Assembly (NCBI GenBank): GCA_035772405.1
Contig: JAYKKM010000418.1
Coordinates: 1,936,001 to 2,000,000 of the forward strand
Reading direction: 5' to 3'
Length of the DNA stretch: 64,000 bases
Origin: Chrysogorgia sp. JL179-B06
Taxonomy: Eukaryota > Cnidaria > Anthozoa > Scleralcyonacea > Chrysogorgiidae
This document shows, one piece after another, positions 23,201 to 53,200 of the stretch (positions are counted from its first letter, which is position 1; each line of letters starts with the position of its first letter). The notes beneath the pieces are model-generated. The model ran no database searches. It had not been told where the DNA came from and worked only from the letters and a program-made list of their open reading frames with translations. The position numbers and the translations under genes are program-made.

Positions 23201-26200
23201 AATTATGCATAAATTTTCTCCAAATGACTGTAATCTAAGCAAATACAAACCTTACCCTATATGCACTTTAAAGCTACACTGTATGTAACCTATACAACCT
23301 ATACAACTGTAGACACATATACACTATTTGTCTGGTTCTGGCTCATTTTCATTACTTCGTAGAATAAAATTTTATAAAATAAGAACCTGCTTTTAAATTT
23401 TAGCCTAAAACAGGTTCTTATGTAAAGGGGGTCTAAATGGCAAATCGTAGACAAAAAGGTTCTTAAAATCTAGGTTCTTATACGCGGGTTTTTACTGTAT
23501 TCTTGTTTGGGGTTCATTTTAATATATACATTTATTTTAGGGTTAGCATTGGGGTTCGTATTGGCAAATGAAAAGGTTATTATTGCTGTCTCTATTAGGG
23601 AGGCAACACACTATTCTTGGCGTCCTTGTGTTTAACGCTTGCCCAATCCATTCGCGCACCTATGTATAGTGAAAAAAATGGGATGTTTGTTAGCAGTGCC
23701 CTTTGCCTTCCTGTGGCTACATATGTCATGTGACTAATACCACTTGTTTGTTGGAGTATTCATCAAAGTCATGAATGTTTAAGTGGCGAGCTGTCTCGAG
23801 AGAATTAGTGTTCCTTTATGAGTTCATCGGCGCTTTTGAACGCACAGAACATTCATGTTATCGAGTGGAACACGGCAACAAATGACAGCGTCTTTCAAGG
23901 AGACACTATAACATTAATGTTTTTGAGAACGGTGACATCCCACATGATTTCCGTTGTTATTTTAATATTAGAAGGGTATTCCCGTTCGTTTGTTCGATTT
24001 GAAATATGAACGCTCGACCGCCACATAAGTCGTTTAAAATCAGCAAATATTACAAACGTGAAGTTCGATTTGGCAAAAAGTGTCGCTTGAATGGAAAATT
24101 TATAACTTCGCGAGGCTCGCTCGTTTCAAATAAATGTTGTTCGAATTAGATGTATGGCGTTCAAAAGGTTATGTTGAATTTTGACATTATAAACGCGCCA
24201 TATGATTACCGTATGTTATTTTAATATTAGAAGGCTATATGATAGCATTGATACATGGTTTAGATTCTACATTCTATTTATTTTATCCTCATGCTATACA
24301 AAATTTCTAGCAATATTCTGCTGGCATGCCTGATCGTGAACGCTGCTCGAACCTCGTCAGTCCCGAGGCAGCATTTCACTTCTGAGAAGAACTCCTACTC
24401 TATACATTATAAAAGAATCAAGCAGTGAGCGGGAGAGGGGTTGTTGCGTACACGTGTTTATAGCAAGAAATTACATCAAAACTAGACTTCAGTTCCCCTC
24501 TAAACTACACCAAGGGGGCAACTTCGACAATCGATATCGCAAACCGGGATTTATTTCATTTTTTGAAAATTGTTATTTAGATACGAGCTTTCATTGATTT
24601 TATTTAAAAATATGAGATCGAAATTTTTCACTTCATAGATAATTTACAATTGAATTAAACATTTTCGAAGTAAGAACTTTGTTTACCTTGAGGTCAGTTG
24701 TAGGTAGAGCGACATTTCTTAAATTGGAAATCTTTTTCAAAGTTACATCGGGTAGTGATATCGGTCCTGGGAGAAACAAACACAGAAAAAAATAGTGACT
24801 TTTTTCTTCTATTTATTTTACCCTGAATATGTTTCATTATTAGCAACAAAAGTTATCTTGAATAAAAAGGTAAATATTTACTGGTGTCTCTACGTATGTT
24901 ATTCAAGTGAATGTCATTCTTGGGATCGTTTAGCTGGAGAAATGTCACACATGAAAGTCCAACACCATATGAATGTCCTCCAAGCGGTCCCACGTGCAGT
25001 TGCGCGCCCGCTTTGTGTCTAGTCTTCCGCTCTTTTGGGAGGAAACCAATTGTATTGTATTGTATTGTATTGTATATTGCATTGCATTGTATTTTATTAT
25101 ATTATATGTATGCATGGTATTAGTTGCGTAATGTAATGTAATGCAATGCAATGCAATGCAATGCAATGCAATGCAATGTAATGTAATATTGTGAAGTATC
25201 GCAGGACCACACTGAAAAAACACTTCGGTGACGTGGGTGTCCTGAATAAATATTATTATTATTATTATTAAGTGTATTACAGTTCATAACCAGATGACGC
25301 TTTCCCCTTCTTTGTCAGTTTCTATATATTGTAATTACGAACTAATTGCACTAAACCCAATCCTGTTCGTCGAATAAGGATTTAAGAAATACCTAATGGT
25401 TTTCCGTGTTTGGATACTCAGATCTAAACTCGCGGGATGTTGCGAGACTTGAGAAAAGCGTAAAAAAACACGAGCCGCTAGGCGAGTGTTTTTAGCTTTT
25501 CGAAAGTCGAGCAACATCCCAAGTGTTTGGATCAGAGTATCCAAAGACGGAAAACCATTAGGTATTTATTTTATAAAATAACCACAGAGAAATATCACTA
25601 AAAGTTATTAATATAATTAGATCAACATTGCAATTCTCCCAAAAACCGTCAACTACCAATCAGGGGAGGTCTTTCATGTCCTTCTACGCTAATCGGCCAA
25701 TCATGGATGGTTTCCTATTATGATTTATGATGCTGACGACAGCAAAAGCCAGAAATAAGTTTGAAATGGTAAAAACATCAGGAAAACATACTTAGAAAGA
25801 TGAAAAAGATATTTCCAGATGGATTTAATCGCGAAAATATACCGTTTAACTTTATGTTGGATTGCTGCAGATGTAAAGCGATGTTGTGAGTTTGCCTAGC
25901 CTTCATATCCTACAACACAGAATCTTTTTTGTGGTTTTATTTCACAGTCGAAGTGTTGTTCGGTGATTTTTTGTTGGCTACAAGAACAAAATGAATGGTT
26001 TCTTCGTGAATATCCTGCCCGACGAGAGGTAAAATGAACATTTTACACCTTTTCCATGTTCTCTTTGTGGACTATATCTATAAGAATGTTTTGTTTTGGG
26101 GTTTTATTGAAACTTTCAATAAGGTAAACGTCGCCCTTACAAATTATACGATTATTCTCGTTCGCTTTTATAGCGTTGCTTTGTCCACTTTAAATACTTA

Positions 26201-50200: not shown

Positions 50201-53200
50201 CATTATTTGCTGGAAACATTGGAATCTGAGTATCGTGGTAAATTTGACTACATTGTGTTGATTTGTCCTACTTTCGAGTGGAACAAAGCGTACCAAGATT
50301 GGAAATATGTGCGTGACCCTGACGTGTTAGCGATAGACTGCACACAAGACAATGTCGACGCTGTTCTCAAGTGTGTAACAAACATTTTTAAAGGCACTAA
50401 CACTCTGATTGTGTTGGACGACTGTGCGAGTGGGCAGGACGTCAAGAATAGGACTAGTCAATTGGTCAACTTAGCTTTTAGTGCGCGACATTTTACGCTG
50501 AGCGTTATTGTCATCACACAACAACTGACGTCAATCGCGAAACCGTATAGAGAAAACATTAGTAAGCTCATTTGCTTCTACTGTCCGAGCAGGAGTGATA
50601 TGAAGGTCGTTATTGACGATTACCTTGGGCACATTAGCAAAGAAGAAGTGTCGGCGATTGTGACCGCACTAAAAAATAATAAGTACGCTAGACTTGAAAT
50701 CTCACTGCGTTATCCATACAATTACGAAGTTGTTATTCCGCAATAAAATATGGGTATAAGTAGTAACGTGATGGTGAAACGCAAAAGTGATGAAAATCCC
50801 ACGATTGAGGAATTAGTTGAGGACACTCAAGCCGCTAGCACCTCGACTGTGGACACTGACGACACTGACGTTAGGAGAGCTGAACTTATTAGACTGTCTG
50901 GTGACGGTGTGGTAAGCCAATCTGAAGCATACATTAAAAAAGCGTCCGCAAAGGTTATCGACAAGATATGGCGCCAACACGAGTTGAAGAGAATGGAAAT
51001 TGCAAACGCTTTTCTCACCGACTTGCTAATCAGCAAATTCGCTAGCCTACTGGATGGGTTGAACGCTATTGAGAACTCTGACGAACTAAATGACGAGCTG
51101 CAAAAAGACCCGTTATTAAAGAAAGACGTTGAGAGCATTGTCGCGGTTGTGACACCATACCATACGTACCTTTCTTGGGCTTGTTGTCGGGAGGAATCAT
51201 AACGTCAAAATATGTGTACGATCACCATTTTAAAAGTGAGACAAACGTTGAAAATAGTGAACAAACGGACTAATTCGCAAAACAACCGGCCACCTGTTAG
51301 TATGTAAATTAGTCAATGTTGCTAACCAATCAAAAGAGCGCCATTTTGCTATCCATTTGGGTACTTGTTTGGATAAAATATTTGTTGTGGGCGCTGGTGT
51401 GAATTGACCAATCAAAAGAGCGCCATTTCGCTATCCGTTTGGATAAAACACCACTAGAGTCAAAATCTGGTGGTTTTTTTTCGCGCGTGAATTGAGACAA
51501 CAGCAGAACGTGTCGGTGGTCATAGTTTGTTGAACAAAAATGTGAAAATGTTGAAATGACACTCTCTATTTTTTCTAAATATGCGAAAATGTTGAAGCGA
51601 CACTCTCTATTTTTAAAAAATGCGAAAATGACGAAACGACACTTTCTATTTTTAAAAAAATGCGAAAATGACGAAGCGACACATTCTATTTTTAAAATAT
51701 GACTGAAATAACACCAAATTTAGCGAAAATCGTGATTTGGTATAAATTTGGTGTTGTTTCGTGAGTCTCGCGCGTGTTTGACATCAATTGAGTAGAAAAC
51801 GTGAGGGGTGTTTAGCTTAATTAACGATCGCCATAGTAGTATAGAGAGTGGGGGTGCGAGCTTATTCGATGTTTTCCGTGAATATAGAATTACCGAAATG
51901 ACAGCGAATTTTGTCGAATCGCGATTTGACACAAATTTGACGATGTTTCGGTAATTATATTCACGGTTAACATCGATTGAGCTCGCACCCCCACTCTCTA
52001 TACTACTGTTTAAAAACGATGGGCGGCCGGCATGATTTGCTTTTTGTGTGTACAAGTTCGACCTCAAAATTCTCGTGTTTGGATACTCTTATCCAAACAC
52101 GGGTATTGACCAATCAGAGCGCTTGTTGTGTACATGTTATTTTATAAAAGCTAAGACTACCCTACATTATAAGAAACTGGGGTAAGCAGAGAATGGGCTA
52201 TCAAGCTATTAAAGACTGGAAGACGTTAAACATTAGAAGTTCTTTAAATATTGTAATTTTTAAACAGAAACTTTTTAAAACATTCTTAGTTTATAATTTC
52301 ACATTGCAATTTTACACATATTTGCATTCTATTTGTTTTTGTTATTTATCCCTAATTTTAGTTAGGTCCTGATTAAATATTAATATTTTATTTTTCTTAC
52401 ATGGGTTAGTTAAACAATACTCAGGAAATGTACTACCTGTATTATTTTTATATTGTGATACATCATAATAGGCCAACTCAATGTAAGCTTCACTCAGCTT
52501 CTCCATCGATGTTACAATAATTCGTTTTGAGCTTCGAACTCTTTCAATTACAGTACGAGCAGCTTTGACGCGGTCCTAGATAATAAAAAAATATTTCTTA
52601 GAAACATATATTGACCGAGATAAATAAGGGCAGAAAATGTCAGGACATATATTAAGGTCGCAATCTTCCTCCTTTTCAAAAGACGCAGATGTACGATGTT
52701 AAAACATGCATGTCTTTTATATGTTTCTATATTTATGCATTCATTTATAAACAACACACATGCCAATTCTAAGTTTTAAGTGATAACTTGAACAGTTTGG
52801 AGATTCAAGATGACGATTGATGTTTGTGAGCAAATAAGATCGAGTTTTAAGCCCTTTTTTAGTCCTGGATGATATCAAGAAAAGATTCAAAAGATGATTG
52901 TCGACTGGGGCATAGTCAATCGAGATATGGTCTGGAAACTCGGCAAACTTCAAAGCGAATATAATGAGCTACGTTTTGATGTTGAACCGTACCTTACACC
53001 GTGCACATCCTTTGTTTTAGGTTTATTAATATTTAAACAACACGGTTGAGCGATTAAACCCAAACGATTCTATTGGATGATTGCTTCATTATACTAAAAT
53101 ACAATAGGTTCAGTGACCGTGCACAAAATTGCATAAAGACGAACAAAAAGATAGAACAAATACTTTAGCTGAGTTTCCAGACCATACCTCACTTGACTAT

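Follow-up and report, generated by a model that had tools for sequence, protein, structure and literature searches.

How a large virus-like element came to lie within a gene for a genome-stability kinase, and whether that gene is still read across it, are the questions raised by a 64,000-nucleotide stretch of the octocoral Chrysogorgia sp. JL179-B06 (contig JAYKKM010000418.1, here C418, positions 1,936,001 to 2,000,000; hereafter the window, whose own coordinates are used unless C418 is given). The window holds the 3′ part of an ATM gene, one intron of which contains a Polinton. That this is a real Polinton insertion, in an ATM intron that is spliced, can be stated with considerable confidence.

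The ATM gene, its long intron and the inserted element

The ATM part lies on the minus strand (7886–63704) and comprises 15 coding exons, from 63594–63704 to 7886–8215; the model covers the exons inside the window. Fourteen of these were placed by tblastn matches to ATM proteins, which are strictly colinear between 63704 and 7886, and a 45-nucleotide exon (14062–14106) was added to them. All 14 junctions are in frame and GT-AG, with no stop codon in the stretch tested around each. The best matches of the minus-strand peptides are the ATM proteins of two octocorals, Paramuricea clavata and Dendronephthya gigantea (69% identity, 60% of the query), and ATM chains rank ahead of Tel1 and mTOR when the kinase part is compared with the Protein Data Bank (PDB). 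Closest relatives, colinear exons, kinase exons and a C-terminal exon at the end of the model all agree with an ATM/Tel1 kinase. The original prediction that minus-strand exons 52437–52575 and 24687–24766 join in phase across about 27.7 kb is borne out: the intron that they flank, between model exons 6 and 7, measures 27,670 bp, is in phase 1 and has GT-AG borders, and the two exons together match Paramuricea ATM residues ~2286–2360.

Within this intron, the Polinton spans 26307–52007 (25,701 bp, nested insert included), or about 18.4 kb once a nested 7.3-kb DNA transposon is subtracted. The proposal of a 25.7-kb Polinton was right as to the element and its place, but the length is that of two elements, one inside the other. 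The left terminal inverted repeat (26307–26906, plus strand) starts AGTAGT and pairs with the right one (51408–52007, minus strand) at 598 of 600 positions, with two mismatches; the near identity earlier claimed for more than 600 bp stands, over a length of about 600 bp. A GTTTAA duplication adjoins both ends (26301–26306 and 52008–52013). Long inverted ends with AG(T)-type termini and a 6-bp target site duplication are Polinton features, the AGT end motif being described in PMC8097293.

The genes agree with the ends. The catalytic part of a protein-primed DNA polymerase B (pPolB; 1052 amino acids) occupies 26947–30105 on the minus strand, with an N-terminal piece just upstream in another frame; the pieces were compared separately and the frame was left unmended. 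For this protein, 5378 relatives reach an E value of 0.001 or lower; it is 65–69% identical to the best 120 of them, among which 10 carry PF03175 and most PF02945, and its open reading frame (ORF) gave no direct PF03175 match in a Pfam scan. A retrovirus-type integrase with a C-terminal chromodomain (46333–47445, plus strand) was recognized through PF00665 (E 1.5e-5) and the chromodomain (2.6e-9), and was scored as the retroviral-type integrase of Polintons. The major capsid protein (48893–50131, plus strand; 412 amino acids) lacks a sequence-level match in the PDB; its structure model (pLDDT 80.5) shows a double jelly roll (Foldseek E 3.5e-14 and TM 0.55 against an iridovirus capsid chain). 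Among solved structures, the capsids of iridovirus and PBCV-1 match it best and those of virophages rank lower, and many of the 120 capsid relatives listed come from Paramuricea clavata. An A32-type packaging ATPase, as in other Polintons, follows at 50147–50746 (plus strand; PF04665, 2.6e-15). These four genes, the AGTAGT ends, the 6-bp duplication and the length without the nested insert are shared with Polintons/Mavericks (Polintoviricetes; general features in PMC8097293, PMC11071308, PMC4028283 and PMC4642659; see also PMC11071296). The element is best explained as an endogenous Polinton that belongs to a repeated family of cnidarian type.

The insertion splits a dispersed host repeat of about 1.06 kb in all (25382–26306 and 52014–52147), the left part including the left GTTTAA and the right part adjoining its counterpart (together 52008–52147). 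A single, uninterrupted GTTTAA is present in all five fetched copies of this repeat (of 31 listed), as the original prediction expected of an empty site, here at paralogous places. The ends, duplication, genes and empty repeat copies suggest that a linear Polinton genome was inserted by its own integrase into a repeat of this kind in the ATM intron, producing the 6-bp duplication. By analogy, the likeliest route of entry would be guidance by the integrase's HP1-like chromodomain to repeat-rich intron chromatin.

Two other accounts of the locus concern the assembly and the host gene. The Polinton family is repeated, and assembly errors usually arise in repeats, which would favour a misjoin of an unrelated Polinton contig; however, such a misjoin is very improbable because the duplication is exact and the five fetched repeat copies carry one GTTTAA, and the flanking ATM exons also join in phase. 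An effect on ATM dosage or splicing, as originally suggested, draws on the length of the intron, 27.7 kb compared with 0.4–5.3 kb (425 to 5,295 bp) in the remaining 13 introns of the model. The splice sites are nevertheless canonical, and along the ATM sense strand the element has fewer AATAAA motifs (0.66/kb) than the left flank does (1.22/kb); an effect of this kind may exist but appears unlikely. With canonical splice sites and open exons, the whole insert is very probably spliced out of the ATM pre-mRNA as a long intron.

Another ATM intron contains a LINE-type retrotransposon (60814–63411), in which one frame encodes a reverse transcriptase (PF00078, 7.7e-27) and a match to an endonuclease falls slightly short of its cut-off.

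An apparent partial ATM duplicate and a second Polinton

The same contig carries an apparent partial ATM duplicate (C418:1861872–1908591), the two copies lying 35 kb apart. It includes exons 4–11 and 25 bases of exon 12, with 8 of 972 bases differing over exons 4–11; exons 1–3 and 13–15 were not found in the 86 kb of C418:1850001–1936000. One segment (C418:1899247–1900057) matches the right flank of the window Polinton at 90%, and the positions corresponding to window 25381 and 52148 join directly, host repeat and window Polinton both being absent. The same intron of the duplicate contains another Polinton of 18.1 kb (C418:1880875–1898996), which the original proposal had missed, with AGTAGT ends and TGTAAT on both sides; the window has a single TGTAAT at the corresponding place (25132–25137). 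Its capsid protein is 71% identical to that of the window Polinton and its integrase 73% identical over residues 8–286; its pPolB and integrase lie in several frames, its ends match over only ~48 bp and no thymidine kinase match was found in it. In this assembly, the second Polinton is an independent insertion of another lineage, which the partial duplicate would have taken up in the same intron. If the duplicate is real, both Polintons were inserted after the ATM copies separated. The strand of pPolB relative to the capsid gene is opposite in the two elements.

That a repeated mobile element inserts into an intron is commonplace; what stands out is that one intron was hit twice, independently, and two explanations bear on this. 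The duplicate may be an assembly artefact in which two alleles, each with its own Polinton, were placed side by side. This is consistent with the few differences over exons 4–11, with identities of 95–99% without gaps in 14 of 15 aligned stretches (88.6% in the other), and with the appearance of three other Polinton sites on two contigs. On the other hand, the duplicate ends short on both sides within C418:1850001–1936000, and the three other doubled sites differ far less, by at most one mismatch and four gap columns per ~720 columns per end; two misplaced alleles are a minority possibility, to be given about one chance in four. A feature of the intron that attracts integration, so that two lineages hit it independently, deserves about the same weight. 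For such a hot spot speak two insertions of different lineages, each absent from the other ATM copy, the distance of ~250 bp in shared intron sequence between the repeat that carries one Polinton and the insertion site of the second, and the integrase's chromodomain; against it, there are two events only, noticed post hoc, and 3393 terminal inverted repeat candidates, with 40 scored, leave room for chance. The fuller proposal, that the ATM intron at the FAT/kinase border is a preferred landing place reached ~250 bp apart by two lineages, after the copies split, under chromodomain guidance, is somewhat more doubtful still.

Several findings weigh against the reading of a real, integrase-driven insertion beside a duplicated gene. 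The possible side-by-side second haplotype is one of these. In the element itself, pPolB is split over two frames near 30.2 kb, and so broken in the window copy, and the integrase core scores 25.6 bits to PF00665, below the Pfam cut-off of 32.6. No Ulp1/adenovirus-type protease was recognized by Pfam in the ORFs scanned, a difference from Polintons/Mavericks, though a divergent one could escape; such a protease is frequent in Polintons but not universal, being identifiable in 74% of them according to PMC4028283. Chromodomain targeting, finally, is argued purely from analogy. Because pPolB is split, the window Polinton is probably not self-sufficient, as judged from sequence. The pPolB start was also compared in three other family copies, of which two are open across the stretch and one is broken elsewhere.

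Further genes and the nested transposon

The window element adds thymidine kinase, BRO-N/VRR-NUC, 2-cysteine-adaptor and fibre-like genes to the Polinton set, the gene sets of other Polintons having been compared in part. The thymidine kinase (33094–33666, plus strand; PF00265, 2.4e-29) retrieved four distant loci at 25–31% identity from viral contigs, in which capsid and integrase queries found no relatives; a partial search of the open-licence literature found no account of a Polinton thymidine kinase. On the minus strand lie the 2-cysteine adaptor domain protein (30358–30636; PF08793, 1.4e-9), the BRO-N and VRR-NUC protein (33906–34691; family matches), the fibre-like protein (35062–36012; weak tail-fibre match, 1.5e-4) and a conserved protein of ~490 amino acids without an assigned function (36015–37499). 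A zinc-ribbon-like protein (30620–31207, minus strand) has no Pfam match and a single weak match to a phage family without an assigned function (E 0.049); by eye, it may resemble late transcription factors encoded by large DNA viruses. The plus strand also encodes a zinc-finger-like protein (32369–33064) without a family match in protein-family scans, a conserved protein whose C-terminus appears hydrophobic by eye (47452–48870), and a small protein (50750–51202) also present in the second Polinton at 51% identity.

The central region is interrupted by a DNA transposon of 7,325 bp (37501–44825), whose ends match at 28 of 30 bases and are flanked by a TA duplication. These features are shared with TA-duplicating DNA transposons, and the sequence read without the insert resembles other Polinton copies; the insert differs in having no ORF of at least 120 amino acids, because of which no transposase is seen. 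The ends may be of the Tc1/mariner type. GGTT/AACC palindrome arrays lie inside both ends, and three tRNA-Ala-like matches occur in repeat copies within the insert (42290–42971). The arrays, beside genes 36015–37499 and 44827–45540, had been considered as a Polinton promoter region, an idea ruled out by their being part of the nested transposon. This non-coding transposon inserted between two divergent genes of the Polinton, an event that may precede or follow the Polinton's arrival in ATM.

Beyond the insert lie two plus-strand capsid-like genes, pen1 (44827–45540) and pen2 (45545–46336), 31% identical to each other. The pen2 product is a candidate minor capsid protein; the structure model of pen1/pen2 as a single-jelly-roll minor capsid (penton) protein is too poor to use (pLDDT 33.7). 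The central region was compared in five of the 14 other paired family copies (described below). In all five, the counterparts of window 37496 and window 45611 lie within about 20 bp of each other, points that the insert and pen1 hold apart in the window; pen1 is unmatched in all five, and the matching body of the capsid-like gene is that of pen2. The single capsid-like gene of the only copy translated begins like pen1, and that of the second Polinton shares 64% identity with pen1 and 32% with pen2. This resemblance and the pen1-like start make it probable that pen1 predates the window lineage and that the five other copies lost most of it. The fibre-like gene (35062–36012) and pen2 have a near-identical start (MSLNYGY) over ~35 bp, as though the beginning of a gene had been duplicated.

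Outside the gene model, a 32-bp tandem repeat with 12.6 perfect copies (2918–3321) is open in several frames.

The Polinton family and its significance

Among the 40 full terminal inverted repeat matches scored from the 3393 first-look candidates, 30 form 15 pairs, and the 10 without a partner were set aside. These 15 paired copies represent about 12 sites, and the 14 besides the window about 11, since in three cases two copies have the same flanks. Exact 6-bp duplications flank 13 of the 15, and the other two share only 5 bp. The window terminal inverted repeat differs from the other 14 by 6.1–8.1%, compared with 0.2–5.2% among those; by sequence, the copy in the window stands apart as a divergent member of a repeated Polinton family. 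Its two ends differ at 2 of 596 positions, compared with 1 to 19 mismatches in the 14 others; a recent insertion, as originally proposed, is a fair description, but not an exceptional one.

At three Polinton sites, each represented on two contigs, the 60-bp flanks are identical but the elements differ in length, measuring 18.2 and 26.5 kb (C380/C26), 28.2 and 24.4 kb (C5/C391) and 19.3 and 21.8 kb (C259/C142); these are haplotypes or duplicates, which perhaps differ by nested inserts.

Ratios of nonsynonymous to synonymous change (dN/dS) were obtained with five copies, with several comparisons covering part of a gene and three lacking a match. They are 0.07–0.26 in the thymidine kinase, BRO, fibre-like and 36015–37499 genes. 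The zinc-finger-like gene evolves much faster than its neighbours, at 0.64 and 0.67 in two near-complete comparisons, with 0.20 in one partial comparison with saturated dS. These values indicate that selection at the protein level acted while the Polinton lineages diverged, in keeping with a virus-like cycle.

Capsid genes of cnidarian Polintons have been placed outside the main metazoan cluster (PMC10120064); the window element has an octocoral host, and its capsid model, compared by structure, is like those of large DNA viruses and virophages. No report of an octocoral Polinton was found in the open-licence full-text literature, where the sole match for an intronic Polinton in a coral concerned a dinoflagellate. 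The present analysis documents an octocoral Polinton family carrying thymidine kinase and BRO-type genes. It also describes a Polinton insertion with clear limits in a gene for genome stability. Paralogous sites that lack the insertion, and a second, independent insertion nearby, make target choice by chromodomain integrases, and the tolerance of a large intron insert, testable.

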